Of a stretch of DNA of 64,000 bases, positions 17,933-53,240 are shown one piece after another. Made by a program: the position numbers and the translations under genes. The notes under the pieces are model-generated. The model worked only from the letters and a program-made list of their open reading frames with translations. It was not told where the DNA came from and made no database searches. Source of the DNA: Desulfovulcanus ferrireducens. Its GTDB lineage: Bacteria > Desulfobacterota > Desulfovibrionia > Desulfovibrionales > Desulfonatronovibrionaceae. The stretch is taken from contig NZ_JAGUQP010000012.1 in the NCBI RefSeq assembly GCF_018704065.1, positions 1-64,000 of the forward strand. The letters are read 5' to 3'. Numbering within the stretch: the first letter of the stretch is position 1; each line of letters begins with the position of its first letter.

Positions 17933-19645
17933 TTATGTTTGTTTGGTTTTGCGGATGGATTTTAATTCATCAACCAGCGTAACCAATCGTCCATATAATT
18001 TTTTTATTTTTTGACCATACTTAGACAATTCTTCGTCTTTTTTCTTAACATATCTCTTTAACAAGTATGAATCATTCAATATGTTCTCAGCTATAAATAT
18101 AGTTCTAAAGATTAGTTCGTCAAAGTAATTAACAACTTCAAATTTTAATTCATTGAGAATGTTATTTACCATCTCTAGCATTTGGAGATAATTTATACGT
18201 TGATTATTATATCTCCTTTTTTTAAGATCCTCGAGTATTTTTACTTTTCTGGCTTGCTGGATATAACTATATTTTTCCCAGACCTCTTGATAAAGTGAAT
18301 GATGTTCATTAAATTTATCAAAAAGATCAGAGTTTAAGAGATAGTTGTCCAAAACCTTCACCACATTAGCGTAAAACTCATCAGAATATCCAATAATTCG
18401 TCGTTGATGTTTATTTAGCCATGCGTATAAAAATTTGAGTCTTTTTTCATGTGTTTCTGTATTCTCTACAATTTCTCGCTTGTATTTAATCCTGCCAATA
18501 AATTCACCTTTAACTATATCATTGAGCTTCAGAGTCATTGAGTAAGTATCTTTGATTATATTAACTGAAGTGCAGATTTCTGTCGTATATGGGTTGATTA
18601 GTTCTTGGCGAAGAACAGAGAGTGCCCTGTCTTCACGAACATTATTGGGGTCATATTTGTGTTGACGGTAAATAACTCTAATCAAGACAACTTGATTTTC
18701 CGGATCAACAAAATAACCTTTCTCTTTAAGAAAGGTCAGAGTATCTTTTTTGGTCGTCTCAACTTTAACCAAGGCAATCTTTTCTACTCGGGGATAAAAT
18801 TTATTTTTAGGGTCGGCATACAGGGTGGTGATAGTTCTATCGGATTGCCCTAGGACTCGAATGAGAAAAGTTTCTCCTAATTTAAATAATCTTCGTGCAA
18901 ATAGGGCAGCGGACGTTCTTCTCTCCGAGACTATAGGGAACCCATATAACTCCATCAAAAATTGATAAACAAAATTTCTGTTTAGCTCGTATGTTACGTT
19001 GTCATTCGCTTTGAATTTTTTAATTCTTAATCCAAATCTTTTTAGTTCCGTATCTAAATCGGAGGGGAAAGAAGCATAGATGCCAGCAAGATAAAAGTCG
19101 TTATTGGCATCCAGAGCCATGACATGGCCTCGGTCCATTTGCAAAATATATTTAAAAAGTAGTCCATAATTTTTTAAATCGGCTATATCTTTTTGGGAAA
19201 AATCAGATTTAAATTGTTCGTGTAAATTTTTGGGTAATTTATTTAGAAAAGAGTTTAGGTTGTTGTAATGGATTGTTTCTGGTAAAGGGCAAGCGTCTTT
19301 ATGATCAATAATATTTTTTTCATAAGGTGTATGTATGATATCGAATTGAAAGATTTCGTTAAAGTAATCTATTGCTCTGGAAAAGGCTACGAGGCTAAAA
19401 CCAGGTAGATATTCGAATTCATATAAGTCAGTTTCAAATGAGGGTAAGAGATCTCTGGGGTCAACCAAAGGATAGTCTTTAGTTTCTATATATGGTTTTA
19501 AGAGACAGGATTTAATATGGACGATATCAAGATATTTTTTTAAAGCTAAAATATTATCAACTTTAAATCTGGGAAGAGGAGTTGCGGGATCTGACCAGTG
19601 AATATCATTCACATTGAGAAAAAAATCTTCCCATTTTGGGTTCAT
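17933..19645 (-). CDS. Unrecognised 570-aa protein
   Basis: No family is recognised. The sequence is hydrophilic, with no signal peptide or membrane segment. Residues 1-330 look mixed alpha/beta and rich in aromatic residues; the region after about 400 is strongly helical and Lys/Glu-rich, ending in probable coiled coil (about 500-570). AAAGGG precedes ATG 19645. Codon use is AT-richer than the adjacent gcvT. It sits 79 bases before gcvT on the same strand, with a 225-base AT-rich gap upstream, so it could head a gcvT-rsmE transcript. The gene itself is well supported by its length; the function is not known. Confidence 0.85.
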   Translation of the reverse strand: MNPKWEDFFLNVNDIHWSDPATPLPRFKVDNILALKKYLDIVHIKSCLLKPYIETKDYPLVDPRDLLPSFETDLYEFEYLPGFSLVAFSRAIDYFNEIFQFDIIHTPYEKNIIDHKDACPLPETIHYNNLNSFLNKLPKNLHEQFKSDFSQKDIADLKNYGLLFKYILQMDRGHVMALDANNDFYLAGIYASFPSDLDTELKRFGLRIKKFKANDNVTYELNRNFVYQFLMELYGFPIVSERRTSAALFARRLFKLGETFLIRVLGQSDRTITTLYADPKNKFYPRVEKIALVKVETTKKDTLTFLKEKGYFVDPENQVVLIRVIYRQHKYDPNNVREDRALSVLRQELINPYTTEICTSVNIIKDTYSMTLKLNDIVKGEFIGRIKYKREIVENTETHEKRLKFLYAWLNKHQRRIIGYSDEFYANVVKVLDNYLLNSDLFDKFNEHHSLYQEVWEKYSYIQQARKVKILEDLKKRRYNNQRINYLQMLEMVNNILNELKFEVVNYFDELIFRTIFIAENILNDSYLLKRYVKKKDEELSKYGQKIKKLYGRLVTLVDELKSIRKTKQT

Positions 19646-33025: not shown

Positions 33026-33589
33026 AGGTGAGTGTTTAAGCCCATCAATTTATATGGTCAAGCTGAATTTTAGCGGCTTTCCTGGTTGTGCTGGGCTGTA
33101 TGTGGGTTTCATATTGAAACATCTTTGATGCATGATGTTTGAGGCTTAGCCGTAAGGGATTACGCTATTTTTATTTTTTCTCCTTTTCAAAATGAACTTT
33201 ATCTTTTTGTCGGTCGAGAGAGGGGGATAGGTTTCTTGTTTTAGTCTGGTTGCTGAAAGACGCAGCTTGTAATTTGTTTCAAGGTTCGACATAACGAAGT
33301 CACTGTAAAAAAATGCTTTTGACAGCATACTTTACTTTTAAGGGCTGATGAAGCTCAGAGGCTTAAATACGTTATTTGGTTTTAAGCTATTTAGAGGTTC
33401 AGCATTAAAGGGACGCAAACAAGCCTGTCTGTGTATTGTACGCGGACAGGCTTTATTTGTTGGCGTTGATCCGTTTCAAAATGAAAAAAAAATGCGTCCA
33501 GACAAGTTGTTGTAGGATAAAAATAGATATTATTGTTAATATTTTCAGTTAATTATGAGCATGGCATGTTGTATGCTTATAGGGTGTTC
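33026..33589. other. Divergent intergenic region before the accessory cluster
   Basis: A 564-base AT-rich region lies between argD (minus) and the Usp-like gene (plus). It holds a strong hairpin at 33421-33453 (described separately) and no gene. A short minus-strand open frame at 33146-33328 has no ribosome site or recognisable content. Confidence 0.5.
33421..33465 (+). terminator. Terminator-like hairpin in leader region
   Basis: AAGCCTGTC (33421-33429) and GACAGGCTT (33445-33453) pair exactly, extended by two further pairs, and are followed by TTTATTTGTT. There is no plus-strand gene upstream for it to end, so it may close a small RNA or act as an attenuator ahead of the 33590 gene. Confidence 0.5.
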
Positions 33590-34000
33590 ATGGAAAAAAT
33601 TTTAGTCCCTATTTGGCCGAATCAGGATGATATATGGGTGACTGTCCATGGAATGCAGCTTGCCAGAAGGATCAATGCCCAGCTTTTTTTGTTGGAATTT
33701 TTGGACAGTAAACAGACAACGCATACATTGCCCGATAATAATGGCGGTGATAGAGCTGTCATTATTAAATCTCTGGTTATGGATGCAAAAAAGGGGGGAG
33801 TAAGAAGTGTATATTATAATGTGAATGGAGAATTTCATACTGAAGTCATAAAATATATTAAGGAGCATAACATTAGTATAGTAGTACTGGAGTTGCCTGA
33901 AAGAAAAGTCGGTAAACATGCTAATGATATCTTGATGTTGGTTAAAAAACTGATGGAAACTAATGAATGTAAAATTGAATTTGTCAAGCATCATTGTTGA
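33590..34000 (+). CDS. Single-domain universal stress protein-like
   Basis: The 136-aa product starts MEKILVPIWPNQDD, the usual beta-strand opening of a UspA fold, and ends with a strand after a Lys-rich helix. The canonical Usp ATP-loop G-x2-G-x9-G(S/T) is not evident. ATG 33590 is preferred over a longer frame from 33533 because of the family start; AGGGTG precedes it closely. Overlap or short spacing with the following exporter gene (18 bases) indicates an operon. Confidence 0.75.
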   Translation: MEKILVPIWPNQDDIWVTVHGMQLARRINAQLFLLEFLDSKQTTHTLPDNNGGDRAVIIKSLVMDAKKGGVRSVYYNVNGEFHTEVIKYIKEHNISIVVLELPERKVGKHANDILMLVKKLMETNECKIEFVKHHC

Positions 34001-34018: not shown

Positions 34019-34954
34019 ATGCTTCACATGTATTTGCCCATTGCTGGAAACAGCGTGAATGTTTTTTTGATTTTTGGTCTGGGTGGATTGGTAGGGCTAC
34101 TTTCTGGTATTTTTGGTGTTGGGGGAGGTTTTTTGATGACTCCCTTGCTTATTATGTTTGGTATTCCTCCAACTGTGGCTGCAGCATCCGATTCCAATCA
34201 GATCGTGGGCGCGTCAACTTCAGGTACATTAGCACACTATCGTCTGGGTAATGTTGATATGAAAATGGGGGTGTTGCTGCTTATTGGTGGTGTGTTGGGA
34301 GGTGCTATAGGCGTTCAGGTTATTAAAGTGCTCAGGGCTCTCGGTAATGCTGATTTTTTGATCAATATTACTTATGTTATTATGCTTGGCTTTGTTGGAA
34401 CGTACATGTTTATTGAGAGCTTGCAAAATTTACGCAAAAGTAAAGTTAAGACATCCGACAAGTCTTTGGAAAGCACTCCAAAAGAATCTATTTATATAAA
34501 ATTTATGAAAACACTCCCTTTTCAAACTACTTTTGAAAAATCAGGCGTGACAATGTCAATGTTAATGCCTCTCATCTTAGGAACGTTTGTTGGTATTCTG
34601 GCTGCCATAATGGGAGTTGGTGGTGGTTTTATCATGGTTCCTGTCATGGTTTATCTGCTCAGAATGCCGATGCATGTAGTCGTAGGAACAAGTCTGTTTC
34701 AGATTTTATTTACATGTATTAATGTTACGATTATGCAATCATATACAAACCATACGGTTGATTTTGTTCTAGCGTTGCTTTTATTACTTGGTTCCACGGT
34801 AGGAGCACAATTTGGTACAAGGATTAGTAAAAAATTGAAGGGTGACCAATTAAAAATTATTTTGGCATCGCTTGTATTGCTTGTTATGGTAAAGATGTTG
34901 TTCAGTTTGTTGTTGCCACCTTCAATGCTTTTGTCATATGCAGGAGGTCATTAA
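34019..34954 (+). CDS. TauE/SafE-family sulfite/anion exporter (first)
   Basis: The 311-aa polytopic protein has about eight membrane helices in two homologous halves, each with a GVGGGF motif (LLSGIFGVGGGFLMTPLL near 30 and ILAAIMGVGGGFIMVPVM near 200), the mark of the family. Members are proposed to export sulfite, sulfoacetate or related organosulfonates; the substrate here is unknown. AAGGAGG precedes ATG 34019. The next gene starts two bases after its stop. Confidence 0.92.
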   Translation: MLHMYLPIAGNSVNVFLIFGLGGLVGLLSGIFGVGGGFLMTPLLIMFGIPPTVAAASDSNQIVGASTSGTLAHYRLGNVDMKMGVLLLIGGVLGGAIGVQVIKVLRALGNADFLINITYVIMLGFVGTYMFIESLQNLRKSKVKTSDKSLESTPKESIYIKFMKTLPFQTTFEKSGVTMSMLMPLILGTFVGILAAIMGVGGGFIMVPVMVYLLRMPMHVVVGTSLFQILFTCINVTIMQSYTNHTVDFVLALLLLLGSTVGAQFGTRISKKLKGDQLKIILASLVLLVMVKMLFSLLLPPSMLLSYAGGH

Positions 34955-34956
34955 TT

Positions 34957-35733
34957 ATGAAAGATATAAAGATTATAAAATATATTTTGTTGTTTATGTT
35001 TGTAACAATATTTTTAAGTCAATCTTCAGTGTTTGCTTTTCATTTTAGCCCTGAAGTAATTAAGGTTGGAGTAACATACAAGGGCGCCAAACTGTATGTT
35101 TCAGGAGAAGTTGAAGATGACCGGGATGTTGTGGTGCAGGTTGTGGGGAGTGGGGAGATTGCTCACTTTAAACAAAAAGGCAAAGTCGGCGGCATATTGT
35201 GGATGACCGTTGGCCATGTGACTTTTGAAAATGCTCCCTCTGTGTACTTTACTTATCTACCTGAAAAGATAAGCAAATGGGCTGATGAAAATAATCAATC
35301 CTGGAAGTCTCTTGGCCTGGGCTTTGACGCTTTGTTCCATAAAATTGAAATTTTGCCCGCTTCTAAGGACAAGAAATTATTGTTTGATAATTTCTTAAAG
35401 TTAAAATCTCAGGACAATCTCTATCAATTGGTAAAAAAGGGTGTTTCTTATAAGGCATTGCAGGAGGGTAAAAAGAAATTTATGGCTTCAATTAACATTC
35501 CTGCTAAAATGCCTCTGGGTACGTATGAATTGCGGGTTATTAAAGTAAAAGGGGAGCATATCCAGTCTATAGAGAAGGAGCATTTTAAGCTAGAGGAGGT
35601 CGGTTTTCCCTTATTCCTGAGTAAGCTGGCGTTTGAGCATAGTTTGCTTTATGGAATTATGGCAGTTGTTGTAGCTATTTTTGCTGGTTTATTTATGGGC
35701 GTTCTTTTTAAAGATAGGGGTGGAGCCCATTAA
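34957..35733 (+). CDS. TIGR02186/Alph_Pro_TM-like anchored protein
   Basis: The 258-aa product has an N-terminal signal sequence (about 1-28), an extracytoplasmic domain and a C-terminal membrane helix (about 230-250) followed by FKDRGGAH. The pattern SPEVIKVGVTYKGAKLYVSGEV and GGILWMTVGHVTFENAPSVYF matches what I know of TIGR02186 proteins, which are regularly encoded beside TauE/SafE exporters. It is probably an accessory subunit of the exporter; the biochemical role is undescribed as far as I know. Confidence 0.78.
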   Translation: MKDIKIIKYILLFMFVTIFLSQSSVFAFHFSPEVIKVGVTYKGAKLYVSGEVEDDRDVVVQVVGSGEIAHFKQKGKVGGILWMTVGHVTFENAPSVYFTYLPEKISKWADENNQSWKSLGLGFDALFHKIEILPASKDKKLLFDNFLKLKSQDNLYQLVKKGVSYKALQEGKKKFMASINIPAKMPLGTYELRVIKVKGEHIQSIEKEHFKLEEVGFPLFLSKLAFEHSLLYGIMAVVVAIFAGLFMGVLFKDRGGAH

Positions 35734-36023: not shown

Positions 36024-38624
36024 ATGGGTTTATCTGTGCCTTATAGTAATCTAAAACAATTTATTTGCGGATTGTCTGAAAAGCTTTGCTCTTTTTTTGT
36101 TTTTGGCAATAAGCAAAAGCATTCCCTCATTGATTTGTTCGAGCATTTTCAAAAATTGATAGCTCAAAATAATACTTCTCTCGAGATAATGTCTGATTTA
36201 GGTGAAAAATTGAGCGGGGAATATGTTTTTGATCGTCACTATATAGAAGATAGCGTTTCGCAATTGACAGATAGTATTTATAAAATGATATATCATCTTG
36301 ATTGTATGGCGCCTAAAAAGTATCTTCAGCTCTTTAGTATTTATAATAGAATAAGATCTGAAATAGATATGGAGTTAAAAGGAAAGGTGTGTGTTCCTGA
36401 TGGTGATCTTATTGTGCCTTATGCAAAGATAGATGATACATTGGAAGATTTAGTAGGAGGAAAAAATGCATCTCTCTGCATTGTTGGGAATGTTCTGGGA
36501 TTTAATATCCCTCCTGGCTTTGCTGTTACAACCAGAGCGTTTGAATTGATATTGAGGGAGGGTATTCTTACCGATAAAATACAGGATTATCTTGCTCAAT
36601 GGCAGCAAGATAAAATTTCTACTGAAGAAGTATCAGCGAAATTGCAGAACATAATTTTAGATGCAAAGTTGCCGGATGAACTTGCAAAGGAAATTCTAAA
36701 AGGCATTGCAGAATTAAAAAAAGAGGTGAGCAAGCAAAATTTGACATTTGCCGTGCGTAGCAGCGCCCTGGGAGAAGACAGCGAACATAGTTTTGCGGGA
36801 CAATACTCCAGTTTCCTTAATGTGCCGGAAGCAAAGGTCTTGGATGCCTATAAACGGGTAGTGGCCAGTACTTATTCCAGAAGAGCGATGGAGTATAGAA
36901 GGGAAAAGGGGATTTTAGAGTCTGAAATTGCTATGGCTGTTGGTTGTCAGGTTATTGTTCCTGCCAGAGTGAGCGGAGTGGTTTATACCCTGGATGCGTT
37001 TAATTTAGAAAAGGAGAGGCTGGTGATTTCGGCCTTGCCGGGGATGGGAGAAAAGTTGGTTGCCGGGCAAAGAGAGGCGGATCGATATTTTGTCTCCAGA
37101 ACGCCGCCTTATTCTATTTTAGGTATGGATATAGTTCATAAAAAAGACATGTTGATTGCAGCCGGAAAGCAGGAAGAAGGGCTAAGTCAAGTTAAGGTCG
37201 ATGAAGAGACTGCGGATCGCCCCTGCCTTACGTCGAACCAGGTATTGGAACTTGCAAAAGCAGCACTGCAACTAGAAAAATATTTTAAACATCCACAGGA
37301 TATAGAGTTCGCCTTTGATGATCAGAACAGATTGGTTATTTTGCAGAGCAGGCCATTAAATTTGCAGCAGAGCAAACCAAGATTATTCTGTGATCTGACA
37401 AAATTGGCTAAAAAATTTCCGGTTATTTTTGAGCAGAAGGGGGAGATTGTCCAGGAAGGAGTGGCGATGGGCAAAGTTTGTCTCATTAAGGATGACAAAG
37501 ACCTTGAGAATGTTTCTGAAGGAGCAATTTTGGTCGCGCATTTTTCCTCCCCTAATCTTGCCAGGGCCATTAAACAGGTAAATGGGATTATTACGGATAT
37601 AGGATCACCATTTGGACATATGGCTACTATAGCAAGAGAATTTAGAGTACCGATGATTGTTAATACTAAAATCGCTACAAAAATTTTACATCAGGGTCAG
37701 GAGATAACTTTGGATGCTACGGAGAATGTTGTTTACGCTGGTTTTATGAAAGAACTTTGTTTTTATAATTTTACAGAGACAAAATTTGGAGAAACTTATG
37801 AATACAGGTTGTTGCGCAGGATTTTAAAAAAGATATCTCCATTAAATTTAGTGGATCCTGATAGCAAAAATTTTTCACCGTCTTTTTGTAAGTCTTTTCA
37901 TGATTTAATCCGTTATATTCATGAACAGGCAGTAAGAGAATTAATAGACCAAAATTATTTTACACATTTTTTTGTACGCAAGCGGGCTGTTAAGGTTAAC
38001 TTAACTATTCCGCTTGGTCTTGTTGTAATTGATATTTCCAATAAGTCTGATTTTAATCTGCAAAAAATAGAGCCGGAGGAATTGGTTTCGTTGCCTTTGA
38101 GAAAGTTTCTCAAAGGAGTAAGTGCTCCTGGCATTTGGGCCAGGGAGCCAGTGCCTGTAGATTTTAAAAGTTTTGTTTCCAGCATGACTAAAACATTTTC
38201 TTCTGATGTTGCGGACCCCAGGTTTGTCGGTCAGAATCTGGCAGTAATTTCTCCTGAATATGCCAATATTAGTTTACGGCTAGGTTATCATTTTACCATG
38301 ATCGATACTTTTGCAACTTCTAATGCGAGGGATAATTATATTTATTTCAGATTTTTTGGTGGAGTTACAGACGATACACGCAAAACCAGGCGGGCCAGGT
38401 TGATTGGCAAGTTACTGGCAGAGAGCGATTTTTTTGTAAGCATTAAGGGAGACTTAGTCATAGGGAGATTAAAGGGTTTGTCAAAGGAAGAAATTCTGGA
38501 AAAGATGTTTGTTCTTGGCGTATTGGTAGCATACACAAGGCAGCTTGATGTGCAGATGGGCGACGAACGAAAAGTAGATTATTTTTTAAGCGAGTTTCAT
38601 AATATTTTGATGAGTTTGAATTAG
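36024..38624 (+). CDS. PEP/pyruvate-binding dikinase-like protein without TIM barrel
   Basis: An 866-aa cytoplasmic protein. Residues 1-135 are a helical region of unknown type. Residues about 140-450 are a pyruvate,phosphate dikinase/PEP synthase ATP-grasp domain (VGGKNASLCIVGN, FAVRSSALGEDSEHSFAGQYSS, IEFAFDDQNRLVILQSRPL). Residues about 470-580 are the swivelling phospho-His domain with His532 in GSPFGHMATIAREFRVP. The C-terminal 290 residues are not the PEP-utilising TIM barrel and match no fold I recognise. It probably makes a phospho-His from ATP and passes phosphate to an unknown acceptor. The ribosome site is weak. It is flanked by family E hairpins. Confidence 0.88.
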   Translation: MGLSVPYSNLKQFICGLSEKLCSFFVFGNKQKHSLIDLFEHFQKLIAQNNTSLEIMSDLGEKLSGEYVFDRHYIEDSVSQLTDSIYKMIYHLDCMAPKKYLQLFSIYNRIRSEIDMELKGKVCVPDGDLIVPYAKIDDTLEDLVGGKNASLCIVGNVLGFNIPPGFAVTTRAFELILREGILTDKIQDYLAQWQQDKISTEEVSAKLQNIILDAKLPDELAKEILKGIAELKKEVSKQNLTFAVRSSALGEDSEHSFAGQYSSFLNVPEAKVLDAYKRVVASTYSRRAMEYRREKGILESEIAMAVGCQVIVPARVSGVVYTLDAFNLEKERLVISALPGMGEKLVAGQREADRYFVSRTPPYSILGMDIVHKKDMLIAAGKQEEGLSQVKVDEETADRPCLTSNQVLELAKAALQLEKYFKHPQDIEFAFDDQNRLVILQSRPLNLQQSKPRLFCDLTKLAKKFPVIFEQKGEIVQEGVAMGKVCLIKDDKDLENVSEGAILVAHFSSPNLARAIKQVNGIITDIGSPFGHMATIAREFRVPMIVNTKIATKILHQGQEITLDATENVVYAGFMKELCFYNFTETKFGETYEYRLLRRILKKISPLNLVDPDSKNFSPSFCKSFHDLIRYIHEQAVRELIDQNYFTHFFVRKRAVKVNLTIPLGLVVIDISNKSDFNLQKIEPEELVSLPLRKFLKGVSAPGIWAREPVPVDFKSFVSSMTKTFSSDVADPRFVGQNLAVISPEYANISLRLGYHFTMIDTFATSNARDNYIYFRFFGGVTDDTRKTRRARLIGKLLAESDFFVSIKGDLVIGRLKGLSKEEILEKMFVLGVLVAYTRQLDVQMGDERKVDYFLSEFHNILMSLN

Positions 38625-38695: not shown

Positions 38696-38837
38696 TGTAG
38701 GTATGCAAGGATAAATACAATTTGGATGGGATAAAACAATTGTACAGCTGTAAAATGTATTTGTCTAGACGATTATGAAATTCTAGTTGGCTTATTAAAG
38801 TCGCCGTAACCGTATAAATTTGTTGGAGGAGAGTGTG

Positions 38838-39230
38838 ATGTGCAAGAAAAGGTTCAATATTTTAATTGTGGATGATGAACCAATAGTAAGTAAACGACTG
38901 AAGCCGTCTCTGGAGAGGAAAGGGTATGAAGTAGAGACCTTTGTCAGAGCGGTAGATGCATTGGATAGATTTAAGAATTGTCCATTCGATATTGTTATTA
39001 CAGATTTAAAAATGGAGGAAGAGCTGGACGGAATGAAATTTTTGACTGAGGTCAAATCGTTAAGACCAGCAACCGAGGTTATTGTAATTACCGGCTTTGC
39101 TACAATGGAGACGGCGAAAGAATCATTTAAAAAAGGTGTGTTAGATTTTTTGGCCAAGCCTTTTAAATTAAAGGAGATACATAACGCGGTAGCCAAGGCG
39201 GTGGATAAGATTAAATCGAGAGTAGAGTAA
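38838..39230 (+). CDS. Single-domain response regulator
   Basis: The 130-aa product is one receiver domain with no output domain. Acidic pair DDE near residue 12, phosphoacceptor Asp56 in VITDLKME, conserved Thr in VIVITGFAT and Lys in FLAKPFKLKE. GGAGG lies eight bases before ATG 38838. It may be a CheY/Spo0F-like relay for the kinase at 41280 or interact with the dikinase-like or Usp proteins beside it. Confidence 0.93.
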   Translation: MCKKRFNILIVDDEPIVSKRLKPSLERKGYEVETFVRAVDALDRFKNCPFDIVITDLKMEEELDGMKFLTEVKSLRPATEVIVITGFATMETAKESFKKGVLDFLAKPFKLKEIHNAVAKAVDKIKSRVE

Positions 39231-39317: not shown

Positions 39318-40124
39318 ATGAATGTTTTACTGACTGTAGATAATAACCTGGCTTCCAGTATCGCTTTGCGTTATATATGCAGGCAGGCACGTGTAATCCC
39401 TATGACGATCCAGCCCATTCATGTTCAGTACCCCGGGCAGAAGCATTATCCTTTGGGATCAGGGTGGGTTCGGCATACATGGGAAGATAGTATTGCAATG
39501 TCAAGTGCTGATGAAATAAATGCTTTTATTTATAGTGAAATAGAGTATTGCCATGGTCTTGTTGGTCCAAAAGTTGTTGTTGGAGATAAAACAGATGAAC
39601 TATTAAAGGAACTGGATACAGGATTTTATGATTTTTATGTTGAAGGCATTTTATTGACATATGAAATTAACAGATTTTATAATTTGTTAAAAGATAAGTT
39701 ATTTAAAAAAATTCAATGTCCTGTTTTACTAGTAAAAAATTTAGTACATTTTAATTCAGCTGTATTGCTTATAAATGACGACATTGACGTGGACTATATG
39801 ATTGCCTTTTATTTAAAATTATATGCTGAGGCAGATATACCCCTGAATGTCGTATATTATTCTGCAAAGAGTACTGAAAAGGCTGTCTTTAAAGAAGTGG
39901 AGCGGGGCCCTTCATGTCTGGAAAAGGCTAAAGATTTGTTGTCGGCTGCCGGGAGGTCACCGAACAAGCTGATTATGGCTGAAGGGAGGTCTGAAGAAAT
40001 AGCTGAAAAATTAAAAGGTTCAGGATTAGTAGTATCCACATTTAGACGCGACAAGGTTGTAAGAAATTCTCTTATAGATATTGTAGCGCAAACGCCGTCT
40101 CCTGTTTTGCTTTTGTGGAGTTGA
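39318..40124 (+). CDS. Tandem universal stress protein-like (first)
   Basis: The 268-aa product is made of two Usp-like halves (about 1-135 and 136-268), each opening with a strand such as MNVLLTVDNNLAS or FNSAVLLINDD and closing with PVLLVKN or SPVLLLWS. Nucleotide-binding glycine motifs are poorly conserved, so it may bind other ligands or act as an adaptor. GGAGGAAAG stands before ATG 39318. Part of the signalling cluster. Confidence 0.75.
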   Translation: MNVLLTVDNNLASSIALRYICRQARVIPMTIQPIHVQYPGQKHYPLGSGWVRHTWEDSIAMSSADEINAFIYSEIEYCHGLVGPKVVVGDKTDELLKELDTGFYDFYVEGILLTYEINRFYNLLKDKLFKKIQCPVLLVKNLVHFNSAVLLINDDIDVDYMIAFYLKLYAEADIPLNVVYYSAKSTEKAVFKEVERGPSCLEKAKDLLSAAGRSPNKLIMAEGRSEEIAEKLKGSGLVVSTFRRDKVVRNSLIDIVAQTPSPVLLLWS

Positions 40125-40247: not shown

Positions 40248-41102
40248 ATGAGAATAATGCTTGCTGTAGATGATAACCCATATAGTTTGGATCTTGTTAA
40301 TGAAGTAAGCAAAATTATTTTCAATACATGGGCTGATATTACTATTGTAGGCATTGATGCCTCCAGTAATGCTAAATCAGGTCAACCTGATGATTTGATA
40401 AGATTATTGTTAGAGTATAGGGATACATTGTTGTCCTCATATAAGCAAGATGATGAATGCCCCTATTCACGTAGTAGTATAGAAAAAATTGTCGAAAAGA
40501 GGAAAGGAGTTTATGAAGGATATGTGGAAGGAGGGCTAAAAGAATGTAAAATTGTTGCTCGACAGGGTACTGTTTATAAGGAAATTTTAAAACAAGCAAA
40601 TGAAGACGAAACTGATTTGATAATACTTGGCTGCAATAAGAAAAGTGGTTGCCAATGGGATAAACATGACGTTCCTCTTAAGGTGGTTAACAATGCTTTA
40701 TGTTCTGTGTTAGTTGTTAAAGAAAATAAAGCGCCCGATAATATTGTTTGTTGTCTCGATCATGATAAGATTACTCAGGATTCATTGGAATTGATTAATC
40801 AGATGGCAACAGTATATAATGCTGAATTAAAAGTGGTTGGAATATCAGACGGCGATGTGCTTAAGTCAAAAGTTGAAAAAACTATGCAGCAACTTTTTGA
40901 ATATTATACTCATCGTAATATTACTTCCTGGTTGGAAGTAGTGGACAGATCAATACTTTTTGCTTTTATTAACCAGGCAGCTCAAAAGGATCTGGTTGCT
41001 TTATGGGTTGGGGCAAATTCTTTTTTAAACCGTATTTTTCCACATGAGCGTGTTAGTCATTTGTTAAAGAATTCGTATTCGTCATTACTCTTTTTGAGAT
41101 GA
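40248..41102 (+). CDS. Tandem universal stress protein-like (second)
   Basis: The 284-aa protein has two Usp-like halves. The first (1-160) has MRIMLAVDDNPYS and DLIILGCNKKSG followed by CSVLVVKE; the second (161-284) opens NIVCCLDHDK and ends YSSLLFLR. A GGGAGATATATA ribosome site precedes ATG 40248. It is similar in plan to the preceding gene, which suggests duplication and divergence. Function unknown. Confidence 0.78.
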   Translation: MRIMLAVDDNPYSLDLVNEVSKIIFNTWADITIVGIDASSNAKSGQPDDLIRLLLEYRDTLLSSYKQDDECPYSRSSIEKIVEKRKGVYEGYVEGGLKECKIVARQGTVYKEILKQANEDETDLIILGCNKKSGCQWDKHDVPLKVVNNALCSVLVVKENKAPDNIVCCLDHDKITQDSLELINQMATVYNAELKVVGISDGDVLKSKVEKTMQQLFEYYTHRNITSWLEVVDRSILFAFINQAAQKDLVALWVGANSFLNRIFPHERVSHLLKNSYSSLLFLR

Positions 41103-41279: not shown

Positions 41280-42677
41280 ATGGAATCATTAAGAAATAAG
41301 ATTATTATTTTTACTGTTTTGGCAGTTATATTTTTGTCATTACATTTAGTTAGCTATATCCATAATATTAATATTTTTAAAAGAGAGTTAAACACTCTTG
41401 AAGTCGCCCATGATTTTATGGAAGACGTTTTGGAGTTACGTAGATATGAAAAAAATTTTGTTTATAGAATTGACTCTAAGGATATACAGGAAGTTTTAGA
41501 TTATTTAAAAAAGATTAAGGACAAAATCAATCTAATTGCGTCTAATCTGGAACTGGCTGATGACGAAAAAGTCAAAGCTTTTCATAGGGATATAACTCAG
41601 TATGAGCGTTTGATCAATTTGGCCAGAGAGCGCAAAGAGTTTCGATTTAATGAAATAAGGCGTTATGGTAAAAATATGGTGATGATTGCTCAAAATTTTT
41701 TAGATGTCAGCAAAAGCTATATCAACCGCAGATTGAATAAAATTTTAATTATCCCTACACTCGTTGTATTTTTGTTTGGTTTGATTTTAATCGTCCTTTT
41801 GATTGTTTTAACTTTTATTATTTTAAAGCAAATGGCGTTTATACAGAGGGCAACTAAAAAAATTGCTCAAGGAAATTTTTCTTATATTCCTGTTAGAAAT
41901 CACTCTTTTGCTTTAATTGTTGAGGCATTTAACCGTATGATAAAAGAGTTGGAGTTAAGGCAAGAGCAATTACTTAAAGAAAGAAAATTGGCAGCTGTTG
42001 GGACTCTAACTTCTGGAATTGCGCATGAATTGAATAATCCATTGAATAATATTTCTTTGATAGTTGAATCGCTTCTTGAAGAGTTCGATGAGCTAAATAA
42101 AGAAGAATGTATAGAAATGCTTAACGAGGTGTTGGGAGAAGTGGATCGGGCTAGTTCTGTAGTGAAAAATTTACTTGAGTTTTCACGAAGAAAAAAATCG
42201 CAAGCATTTGAATTAATAGATTTGGCTGACATAATTGATGTTACTATCAGGCTTGTACAGAATCAATTGACGCTTTCAAATATTAAGCTTAAAAAGCATA
42301 TACCTGAAAACATACCTAAAATTAATGGAAATTCGGATAGCTTGAAGCAGGTTTTTGTTAATTTATTTCTTAATGCTATCCAGGCTATGCCTGAAGGTGG
42401 CTCTTTAACTGTAGTTGTTTCTCCCGATGCCAAGGGCTTTGTTAGTGTCCAAGTCGCAGACACAGGAGTGGGGATCCCGCAGGATGTGATGGAACGTATT
42501 TTTGACCCTTTTTATACGACAAAGCCTGTTGGCATCGGGACTGGACTGGGGTTGTCTATCGTGTATGGAATTGTAAAAAAGCATGGCGGCTACATAGAAG
42601 TTCAGAGCGAACAAGGCAAGGGCACAACTTTCACGGTTTTTTTGCCAGCCGCAGACTTGTCGCCAGAGTCTGATTAA
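41280..42677 (+). CDS. Membrane sensor histidine kinase
   Basis: This 465-aa kinase has TM1 (about 7-27), a short helical extracytoplasmic domain (about 28-150, four-helix-like), TM2 (about 154-181), HAMP (182-230), HisKA with SGIAHELNNPLNN (His249, NtrB/ZraS-like) and HATPase (DTGVGIPQ, GTGLGLSIVYG). The AtoS/ZraS-like catalytic core typically pairs with a sigma-54 response regulator, and one follows at 42765. No clear ribosome site before ATG 41280. Confidence 0.93.
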   Translation: MESLRNKIIIFTVLAVIFLSLHLVSYIHNINIFKRELNTLEVAHDFMEDVLELRRYEKNFVYRIDSKDIQEVLDYLKKIKDKINLIASNLELADDEKVKAFHRDITQYERLINLARERKEFRFNEIRRYGKNMVMIAQNFLDVSKSYINRRLNKILIIPTLVVFLFGLILIVLLIVLTFIILKQMAFIQRATKKIAQGNFSYIPVRNHSFALIVEAFNRMIKELELRQEQLLKERKLAAVGTLTSGIAHELNNPLNNISLIVESLLEEFDELNKEECIEMLNEVLGEVDRASSVVKNLLEFSRRKKSQAFELIDLADIIDVTIRLVQNQLTLSNIKLKKHIPENIPKINGNSDSLKQVFVNLFLNAIQAMPEGGSLTVVVSPDAKGFVSVQVADTGVGIPQDVMERIFDPFYTTKPVGIGTGLGLSIVYGIVKKHGGYIEVQSEQGKGTTFTVFLPAADLSPESD

Positions 42678-42764
42678 TTTATTTTTCCTCCTATATTTTC
42701 TTCTGAGGATCCGCTACTTAAATTACAGCAGGTATTTTTGCCTGTTATCCAGGAGGATTTTGAT

Positions 42765-44129
42765 TTGCCTTTCCTGAATAGTAAAAATACACCTTTTAAT
42801 GTCGCACTCGTCGATGACGAGGTAATTTTTTGTAAGAGGATACGTAATTTCTTATTAAAAAAATCATATTCCATTGATACATTCTTAACAGGAAAGGATT
42901 TTTTACACGCTACATCTTCCAAGATATTTGATTTAGTTTTTCTGGATTTGAATTTACCTGATATAAATGGTCTTAAGATTTTTGATTATTTGAGGCGCGT
43001 AAGCCCCGAAACAAATATAGTTATAATTACAGGATATGGTAGTGTTGATTCTGCTGTCCGTGCAATGAAAGAAGGAGCAGTTAATTACTTATGTAAACCT
43101 GTTCGTCTGAACGATATTCTATTGACAGTATCTTCTATTAAGGAGCAGGTAATTCTGCGTAAAAATAGTAAATTGCTTCAAGAATCGCTTAAGAAAGATA
43201 ATGTTTGGGACGGCTTTATAGCCTGTTGCGCAGACATGCAGAATCTTCTGGCTACAATAAAGAAGGTTGCGCCTTTAAATTGTACTGTATTATTGCAGGG
43301 AGATACAGGCACTGGCAAAAGAATGGTTGCGCAGGCTATTCATGGCTTAAGTGACCGTAGGCACAAAAAATTTGTTTCGTTTAATTGCGGCGCTTTTTCT
43401 GAGGAATTGATTGCCAATGAGCTTTTTGGACATGAAAAGGGGGCATTTACAGGCGCTGTAGGCGCAAAAACCGGTTTGTTAGAAGCTGCTGACAAGGGTA
43501 CTGTTTTTTTGGACGAAATAGGCGAGATGCCGCTTTCAATGCAGGTGAAACTTTTGCATGTTATAGAGGAAAAGCGTATTTTGCGTCTGGGTTCTGTAAA
43601 ACCTATTGAACTGGATATTAGAATTATTGCGGCGACTAATCGGGACTTGAGAAAAATGGTACAGGAAGGGAGCTTTAGGGAAGATTTATTTTTCAGATTA
43701 AATGTGGTCACAATATCTTTGCCTAGATTGACCGACAGGAAAGACGATATTCCTTTACTGATCGCGCATTTCATAGATAAATATAATAGACAGTTTTCTA
43801 AAAACGTGGCTTCAATTTCTCCGGATGCGCTTACCATTTTAATGAATTATGATTTTCCCGGTAATGTGAGGGAACTTGAAAATATAATCCAGCGCGCAAT
43901 TGCTTTAAGTGATACGGATGTAATAATGCCGGAACATTTGCCTGCTGATATCCAGCATTTTTCTTTTGAAAGCGTGGATGCCAATTCTCTGATTTCCTTG
44001 GAGGAGATGGAAAAGCGGCATATAGCCAGGGTGCTTGAACTTACAGGCTATGATCGTCAAATGACCTCCGCAATTTTGGGTCTTCCAAGGACTACATTGT
44101 GGAGGAAGATGAAAAAATATGGACTTTAA
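42765..44129 (+). CDS. Sigma-54-dependent response regulator (NtrC family)
   Basis: This 454-aa activator has an N-terminal receiver (Asp61 in LVFLDLNLPD), a central AAA+ domain with Walker A GDTGTGKR near 180, the sigma-54 contact loop GAFTGA near 227 and FLDEIGEM, and a C-terminal Fis-type HTH (ILGLPRTTLWRKMKKYG). Start TTG 42765 has AGGAGG eight bases upstream and is preferred over TTG 42738. The partner kinase is the preceding gene. Target promoters are unknown; RpoN itself is at 10202. Confidence 0.94.
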   Translation: MPFLNSKNTPFNVALVDDEVIFCKRIRNFLLKKSYSIDTFLTGKDFLHATSSKIFDLVFLDLNLPDINGLKIFDYLRRVSPETNIVIITGYGSVDSAVRAMKEGAVNYLCKPVRLNDILLTVSSIKEQVILRKNSKLLQESLKKDNVWDGFIACCADMQNLLATIKKVAPLNCTVLLQGDTGTGKRMVAQAIHGLSDRRHKKFVSFNCGAFSEELIANELFGHEKGAFTGAVGAKTGLLEAADKGTVFLDEIGEMPLSMQVKLLHVIEEKRILRLGSVKPIELDIRIIAATNRDLRKMVQEGSFREDLFFRLNVVTISLPRLTDRKDDIPLLIAHFIDKYNRQFSKNVASISPDALTILMNYDFPGNVRELENIIQRAIALSDTDVIMPEHLPADIQHFSFESVDANSLISLEEMEKRHIARVLELTGYDRQMTSAILGLPRTTLWRKMKKYGL

Positions 44130-52289: not shown

Positions 52290-53240
52290 ATGCTTTTCTC
52301 TTCCGGGGTACAAACTCCAATCTGGCTGCCGCCCTTGGTGGCCTCAATCATATCCTTTTTTACCTCTATGGGGGGTGTCTCCGGTGCTTTCCTTCTTCTT
52401 CCCTTTCAGATGAGTTTTCTTGGCTTTACTTCGCCGGCAGTGAGCGCGACTAATCAGCTTTTTAACATTGTGGCCATACCTCCTGGGGTCTATCGCTACC
52501 TTCAAGAAGGGCGGATGGTTTGGCCCCTGGCCTGGGTGGTTGTGCTGGGAACCTTGCCCGGTGTGTTTATCGGAGCCATTGTCCGGGTAGTATATCTGCC
52601 AGATCCCAAAAGTTTTAAGTTTTTTGTCGGGCTGGTGCTTCTCTATATCGGGGTTAAGATGATTAAAGAGTTGCTCAGGACCGGGGACGGGATGAAAAAG
52701 AGCAGCGAACAAAAGTTTGAGCAGTTGGTTAGGGAATTCAGGCAGAAAAAAAGAAACCTGGGAAGGGACTTGCCCATTGTTAAAGTACAAAAATTTTCTT
52801 TGAATAAAATCTGCTATGAATTTTACGGACAAAAATTTGAGTTTTCAACTTTAGGCATTTTTAGTTTGAGTTTTGCTGTGGGTATTATCGGAGGAGTCTA
52901 TGGTATTGGCGGTGGCTCTATAGTTGCCCCGTTTTTTGTTTCATTTTTTCGCCTACCTGTTTATACCATCGCCGGGGCATCCCTGATGGGTACTTTTGTC
53001 ACCTCCATTGCAGGGGTGATTTTTTATCAGGCTATTGCCCCTTTTTATCCTCACCAAGCAGTTTCTCCAGACTGGCTTTTGGGGCTTTTGTTTGGCCTTG
53101 GTGGCATGGTTGGGATGTACTTGGGAGCTCGTTGCCAGAAGTATGTTCCAGCCAGTTGGATCAAAGCTATGCTCAGCGTAATAATTTTCTTTACAGCCCT
53201 GAAATATGTCTGGGGATTTTTGAGGACGCTGGGAACTTAA
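52290..53240 (+). CDS. TauE/SafE-family anion exporter (second)
   Basis: The 316-aa membrane protein has two halves separated by a basic, soluble loop (about 125-185, rich in Lys/Arg). The glycine motif YGIGGGSIVAPFF is in the second half, and the first half has the degenerate GGVSGAFLLLPF. AGAGGACAG precedes ATG 52290, coupled to the DUF218 gene. It converges with a tandem Usp gene, paralleling the first TauE at 34019. Substrate unknown. Confidence 0.9.
   Translation: MLFSSGVQTPIWLPPLVASIISFFTSMGGVSGAFLLLPFQMSFLGFTSPAVSATNQLFNIVAIPPGVYRYLQEGRMVWPLAWVVVLGTLPGVFIGAIVRVVYLPDPKSFKFFVGLVLLYIGVKMIKELLRTGDGMKKSSEQKFEQLVREFRQKKRNLGRDLPIVKVQKFSLNKICYEFYGQKFEFSTLGIFSLSFAVGIIGGVYGIGGGSIVAPFFVSFFRLPVYTIAGASLMGTFVTSIAGVIFYQAIAPFYPHQAVSPDWLLGLLFGLGGMVGMYLGARCQKYVPASWIKAMLSVIIFFTALKYVWGFLRTLGT

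Follow-up and report, generated by a model that had tools for sequence, protein, structure and literature searches.

Results

Gene content of the locus

The window analysed here is a 64,000-nt stretch of DNA from Desulfovulcanus ferrireducens. It contains a gene for an 866-aa dikinase-like protein, located in a module of plus-strand genes that also encodes a TauE/SafE permease, a membrane-anchored TIGR02186 protein, a stand-alone receiver, and a histidine kinase with an NtrC-type regulator. The features of the module and of the dikinase-like protein are as follows:

33562..33577, + strand: candidate sigma54-type promoter-like site, TGGCATGTTGTATGCT (10/11 match)
33590..34000, + strand: small Usp-like protein, encoded by the module's first gene (no Pfam match of its own)
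34019..34954, + strand: TauE/SafE (TSUP) permease (PF01925, E 2e-51)
34957..35733, + strand: TIGR02186 / Alph_Pro_TM membrane-anchored protein (PF09608, E 5e-43)
36024..38624, + strand: dikinase-like protein, 866 aa (ORF, Pfam, family alignment)
36024..36428, + strand: predicted N-terminal helical domain, residues 1–135, conserved core about 36–120 (low-confidence prediction; conservation)
36447..37373, + strand: ATP-grasp domain, residues 142–450 (PPDK_N, PF01326, E 3.6e-84)
37443..37748, + strand: swivel phosphohistidine domain, residues 474–575 (PEP-utilizers, PF00391, E 3e-18, residues 498–567)
37617–37619, + strand: His532 codon, within the swivel domain
37749..38621, + strand: novel C-terminal domain, residues 576–866 (no Pfam or PDB sequence match)
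38820..39230, + strand: stand-alone receiver domain, CheY-like (PF00072, E 6e-27)
39318..40124, + strand: 268-aa protein, probably tandem Usp-like (no Pfam match; one orthologue weakly Usp, E 0.044)
40248..41102, + strand: universal stress protein (PF00582, E 6e-9)
41280..42677, + strand: membrane histidine kinase (HisKA and HATPase_c)
42738..44129, + strand: NtrC-type sigma54 response regulator (receiver, Sigma54_activat, and HTH_8)

ORFs similar to the first gene of the module precede TauE in about a dozen loci, and one of them matches Usp (E 9e-7).

Catalytic domains of the dikinase-like protein

The only Pfam matches in the 866-aa protein are PPDK_N (residues 142–450) and PEP-utilizers (residues 498–567). 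All of the ATP-grasp catalytic positions are occupied as expected (K147, R245, D426, E428, Q441, and R443). In particular, K147, R245, E428, Q441, and R443 are equivalent to positions that PPDK and RPH require, and this set of five is intact in 101 of 111 family members. In the swivel domain, His532, which lies in GSPFGHMATIAREF, is invariant across 66 aligned family members. The Pfam matches, the catalytic residues, and the invariance of His532 agree with the original prediction that the ATP-grasp and swivel His domains are intact, and from their sequences both domains look functional.

A 135-residue helical domain had also been proposed at the N-terminus. The N-terminus is indeed predicted to be helical, at low confidence; its length had been set slightly too generously, since conservation among homologues spans about residues 36–120. 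A profile search with the N-terminal domain returned mostly coiled-coil matches, none of them convincing.

A C-terminal domain in place of the TIM barrel

The C-terminal domain is real and is under constraint. Across 65 sequences, its invariant residues include L607, H626, D627, H633, D670, P691, H756, N771, F775, F777, G779, G780, and R790. The claim that about 290 residues of another kind replace the TIM barrel stands: PF02896 (PEP-utilizers_C, the TIM barrel) is absent from all 65 family C-termini, even at E 1; a C-terminal profile has no match among PDB sequences; and when this profile is compared by hhalign with L079, the canonical 1192-aa PEP synthase that the genome also encodes, the probability is 0.1. 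L079 itself matches PF02896 with an E of 2e-44, showing that the barrel test is able to detect a barrel. A diverged TIM barrel, named at the outset as the outcome that would speak against the replacement, is ruled out by the Pfam search of the 65 C-termini, the hhalign comparison, and the L079 control.

The structure prediction that had been suggested for the C-terminus gave a weak model. With a five-sequence alignment, AlphaFold yielded a pLDDT of 49.6 for the full-length protein and, for the C-terminal domain alone, a mean pLDDT of 56.7 and a pTM of 0.63. In this weak model, the domain would adopt a non-alternating alpha/beta arrangement, not an alternating beta/alpha barrel; the model thus points to a non-barrel arrangement but does not assign a fold. 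Searches with the model returned nothing at E ≤ 0.001 in Foldseek (best match, the YbjN-like 2plg, E 0.009, TM 0.24) and Z scores of at most 6, to unrelated folds, in VIA-align. Searches for the C-terminal domain in plasmids, in phages, and in viral contigs (the last by pattern and by single protein) found no match, and none of the PADLOC defence models matches the dikinase.

Comparison with known dikinases and phosphotransferases

Like PEP synthase and PPDK (PpsA, PpdK), the window protein has an ATP-grasp domain with its catalytic residues, followed by a swivel domain with a phospho-His. Unlike these enzymes, it has no TIM barrel, and it carries a 290-aa C-terminal domain and an extra helical N-terminal domain. 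It falls short of the NCBIfam PEP synthase/PPDK equivalogs (331 bits against a cut-off of 598, and 319 against 740), so that of the features that define PEP synthase and PPDK, it has the ATP-grasp domain and the swivel His and lacks the TIM barrel and a score above the cut-off. PTS enzyme I is likewise excluded as an identity (EI equivalog, 31.5 against 341.7 bits), with a match in the swivel only and no TIM barrel.

The likeness to rifampin phosphotransferase (RPH) drawn in the original prediction does not hold. RPH has the order ATP-grasp domain, acceptor (RIF-binding) domain, and C-terminal swivel domain (PMC4844700), whereas the window dikinase keeps the PEP synthase order, with the swivel in mid-protein (498–567) and 290 aa after it. 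Domain order, together with an NF041857 score of 231 against a cut-off of 999, excludes an RPH identity. RPH and HpeHI do resemble the window protein in that an ATP-grasp domain and a swivel His occur together with an acceptor domain of a non-PEP type, but their acceptor domains have no detectable relation to the C-terminal domain described here. HpeHI is split over two proteins (PMC12167813), whereas the window dikinase is one chain, and even the eight paralogues with a dead ATP-grasp site (see below) still carry the ATP-grasp region, so the split build of HpeHI is not found. HpeH, which comprises the swivel and acceptor domains, transfers phosphate between substrates without its ATP-grasp partner HpeI (PMC12167813); the dead-ATP-grasp paralogues are comparable to HpeH acting without HpeI.

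VadK (Rv1127c) of Mycobacterium tuberculosis, a PPDK derivative proposed to be a regulatory kinase, no longer has a pyruvate site and autophosphorylates on its swivel His; its only domains are the ATP-binding and the phospho-His domain, and its target is the methylcitrate cycle (PMC13400623). The window protein likewise is PPDK-derived, has the ATP-grasp and swivel residues, and has no pyruvate domain, and it would be expected to autophosphorylate. Unlike VadK, it has extra N- and C-terminal domains, both conserved, instead of a truncated build, and it belongs to a transporter/receiver module. The PTS(Ntr) chain of EI-Ntr, NPr, and EIIA-Ntr is a swivel-His phosphotransfer chain that regulates transporters and sensor kinases and does not serve sugar transport; the donor of EI is PEP, and EI has a TIM barrel. 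Unlike PTS(Ntr), the presumed donor for the window dikinase is ATP, and the module contains no HPr-like gene. By analogy, the closest functional parallels to the window dikinase may be VadK and the PTS(Ntr) regulators. Regulatory PPDK-derived kinases are already known (VadK); the C-terminal domain and the coupling to a transporter and a receiver appear to be new.

Conservation of the gene module

Gene context was called by HMMs on six-frame ORFs. We chose 41 window-type loci as those in which the dikinase gene follows a TIGR02186 gene, and the position of TIGR02186 is therefore a criterion and not a result. TauE lies upstream of the dikinase, and a stand-alone receiver lies directly downstream of it, in 41/41 loci; of the 41-locus counts, only these two are independent, and the genomes are related by descent. 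A histidine kinase is present within 8 kb of the dikinase in 41/41 loci, a sigma54 regulator within 8 kb in 35, and Usp-type genes downstream in 22. The phosphorylation-site residues of the receiver (DDE, D62, T91, and K113) are invariant in the 41 receivers. TauE is the most conserved component of the module, with a mean orthologue identity of 71%, as compared with 42% for the dikinase; this high conservation suggests that TauE may carry one conserved cargo. In 23 of the 41 loci, the 900 bp ahead of TauE contain a sigma54-type promoter-like site, as compared with 0.5 expected from shuffles and 2 of 82 coding controls. The candidate site in the window lies only 13–28 bp before the first ATG (33590), leaving almost no leader.

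TauE as the recurring partner of the dikinase family

For 37 paralogues outside the window-type group, enough flanking sequence was available. Of these, 19 have a single receiver no more than 1 kb away, where the background would predict about 0.04 per locus, and 25 have a histidine kinase no more than 3 kb away. TauE recurs in TauE-X-dikinase clusters (L059, L116, and L076) and in a TauE-X-PtxB-HK-receiver-dikinase cluster (L114). Specifically, a paralogue from the same genome as the window (G000:C22, L059 3699–11410) has the order dCache HK-receiver-receiver-receiver-TauE-234 aa-dikinase, while L114 shows the whole order TauE-255 aa-PtxB-HK-receiver-dikinase-DSP phosphatase and L112 shows the stretch from PtxB to the phosphatase. 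In both L112 and L114, which are clusters of the nitrate type described below, the DSP-type phosphatase gene lies directly 3′ of the dikinase gene. Position X holds three non-homologous small proteins (TIGR02186, the 234-aa protein, and the 255-aa protein), the latter two having no detectable similarity to TIGR02186. Because X differs from one cluster type to another, the constant pair is TauE and the dikinase, and TauE is the recurring partner of the dikinase family.

Relation to the Desulfovibrio nitrate cluster

In gene order and domain content, the L114-type arrangement corresponds to the nitrate cluster DVU0251-0245 of D. vulgaris and Dde_0597-0605 of D. alaskensis. In transposon mutants of DVU0246, DVU0247, DVU0250, and DVU0251, 100 mM nitrate leaves growth unaffected, whereas a mutant of the phosphatase DVU0245 remains nitrate-sensitive (PMC4001038); polar effects of the transposons are possible. 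DVU0246 is annotated there as a PPDK-type dikinase, DVU0247 as a receiver, and DVU0251 as TauE. The authors could assign no roles to the genes of the cluster, and they propose a leaky thiosulfate transporter; they also describe the D. alaskensis mutants as mildly sick when grown on thiosulfate (PMC4001038). The interpretation recurs, as "putative thiosulfate transporters", in a later paper (PMC9723548).

The link of the family to the DVU0246 phenotype is made through gene order, annotation, and a sister subfamily, and not through comparison with the DVU0246 sequence. The dikinases of nitrate-type clusters fall into a single six-member clade (support 1.0) that is sister to the window group, with about 30% identity to the window protein. 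The nitrate cluster and the window module are alike in bringing together TauE, a receiver, a histidine kinase, and a dikinase or dikinase-annotated gene. They differ in that the window module has neither the PtxB nor the DSP phosphatase of the nitrate cluster, and the nitrate cluster has none of the TIGR02186, Usp, and sigma54-regulator genes of the window module; the window thus does not have the nitrate-cluster gene order (TauE, small protein, PtxB, HK, receiver, dikinase, DSP phosphatase). The phenotype of the DVU0245 mutant, opposite to that of the dikinase mutant (PMC4001038), suggests that the dikinase and the DSP phosphatase are a kinase/phosphatase pair.

In Desulfolithobacter dissulfuricans, the Usp GF1_10800, the response regulator GF1_10760, and the Usp-like GF1_10730 are among the ten most abundant thiosulfate-disproportionation-only proteins (PMC9751629). 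The spacing of these locus tags, between which the text leaves the intervening genes unnamed, would fit the order Usp-TauE-TIGR02186-dikinase-receiver seen in the relative L008.

Distribution of the family and paralogues with degenerate ATP-grasp domains

The C-terminal domain is present in 107 of 297 genomes of the phylum, often in several copies per genome, and in 101 of 120 genomes of the order. dsrA is present in 102 of the 107 genomes with the family; the five family-bearing genomes in which dsrA was not found are 62–80% complete, and 148 genomes have neither the family nor dsrA. The association has a Fisher p of about 3e-38, uncorrected for shared ancestry, and it also tracks phylogeny. 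Within the sampled phylum, the family is almost confined to dsrA-bearing genomes. Neither this large, multi-paralogue family of sulfate reducers nor the mutant phenotype known for a related cluster had been part of the original prediction. A scan of a genome collection with a single protein as query reached three close relatives.

Eight tandem paralogues, found in loci that also hold an intact window-type copy, no longer have the tested ATP-grasp residues but retain both His532 and the C-terminal residues; the eight group in a single clade (support 0.98). Mean identity among the eight is 28% in the ATP-grasp domain, as compared with 56% in the N-terminal, 57% in the swivel, and 48% in the C-terminal domain. 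Because the dead paralogues keep these domains conserved, the swivel and the C-terminus, together with the N-terminus, make up a putative functional unit able to outlast its own ATP site. Strongly degraded paralogues of 767, 545, and 634 aa are present at L065 453–4394 and L067 15227–17131; in these, the ATP-grasp residues and the swivel His are gone, and part of the C-terminal domain is kept.

Discussion

Proposed function and alternatives

On balance, and judging from sequence and gene context, we favour the view that the dikinase is a PPDK-derived signalling or regulatory phosphotransferase on which a TauE-family transport system for sulfur oxyanions depends, and not a metabolic enzyme. The ATP-grasp domain would charge His532 on the swivel from ATP, as expected from the intact residues and from the chemistry of PPDK, RPH, and VadK. 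The charged swivel may then dock on the C-terminal domain, either passing its phosphate to a non-pyruvate acceptor or having its charged state read; conservation of the swivel and the C-terminus as a unit points to such docking. The output would be control of the co-encoded TauE permease and its TIGR02186 partner, as suggested by the constant genomic coupling and by the mutant phenotype published for the related cluster. As cargo of TauE, a sulfur oxyanion (for instance, thiosulfate or sulfite) would be most likely. The stand-alone receiver may be a regulator, partner, or recipient of the dikinase, and the membrane histidine kinase and sigma54 regulator would set expression of the module.

An acceptor other than pyruvate, as originally predicted, is supported: a canonical PEP synthase (L079) is encoded separately in the genome, so the window dikinase is not needed for PEP production, and pyruvate is an unlikely acceptor. 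The prediction had further placed the acceptor within the cluster. As a direction this is the best one, given the fixed module of TauE, TIGR02186, receiver, and two-component genes.

Co-localization does not distinguish between a regulator and a metabolite-making enzyme. The protein could instead be a small-molecule dikinase of the RPH, HpeHI, or phenylphosphate-synthase type, in which the C-terminus binds a carbon or sulfur metabolite, His532~P phosphorylates it, and the module uses or senses the product. The characterized members with a swapped acceptor domain, RPH (PMC4844700) and HpeHI (PMC12167813), do phosphorylate small molecules; transfer between substrates by HpeH alone offers a precedent that would explain the dead-ATP-grasp paralogues; and the invariant H, D, N, R, and GG of the C-terminus resemble an active site. 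We nevertheless regard such a function as possible rather than probable, because the several paralogues per genome, each beside two-component genes, resemble signalling expansions, because the conserved neighbourhood has no catabolic genes, and because the mutant phenotype in the related cluster is common to receiver and permease genes (PMC4001038).

Direct phosphorelay from His532~P to the Asp of the adjacent receiver, which would make the dikinase a non-canonical histidine kinase, could account for the canonical receiver directly downstream in all 41 loci, with its invariant phosphorylation site, and for the phenotype shared by DVU0246 and DVU0247 mutants (PMC4001038); the dead-ATP-grasp paralogues could then act as Hpt-like phosphotransfer modules. 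We consider this relay improbable, since every window-type locus also has a canonical histidine kinase able to phosphorylate the receiver, 18 of the 37 paralogues outside the group lack a single receiver in the surrounding 1 kb, and the large conserved C-terminus would need a different role. Far less credible still is a diverged PEP synthase or PPDK that continues to convert pyruvate to PEP: although the ATP-grasp and swivel domains score well on PEP synthase models (331 bits) and stand in PEP synthase order, the TIM barrel is absent by Pfam and by profile comparison, the cut-offs are missed by far (331/598 and 319/740 bits), and a canonical PEP synthase is encoded elsewhere in the genome.

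Sulfate reducers govern sulfide production in sediments, guts, and oil fields, and the regulation of their sulfur-oxyanion uptake is poorly known. The dikinase family, read as a regulatory phosphotransferase of TauE modules, may explain the Desulfovibrio nitrate-resistance cluster in biochemical terms. If the dikinase were a phosphorelay kinase, the few known regulatory PPDK derivatives would be joined by a signalling family that is both widespread and multi-copy and that has a new output domain. A bolder and doubtful extension is that the family represents a novel class of bacterial signalling kinase, in which an ATP-grasp/swivel-His dikinase with its own output domain would pair with stand-alone receivers and control the gating of TSUP permeases in sulfate reducers; the dead tandem paralogues would serve as separate phosphotransfer modules of the same relay.

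Other features of the window

Positions 17933–19645 (− strand) hold a 570-aa ORF with no Pfam match at E 1e-5. A second TauE/SafE permease gene is present at 52290–53240 (PF01925, E 7e-40), its product being weakly similar to the TauE of the module. The segment 10202–14984 contains, in succession, genes for RpoN (sigma54), a hibernation factor, PTS EIIA, RapZ, and PTS IIB; the sigma54 gene thus lies in the same window as the sigma54-linked module, about 22 kb from it.
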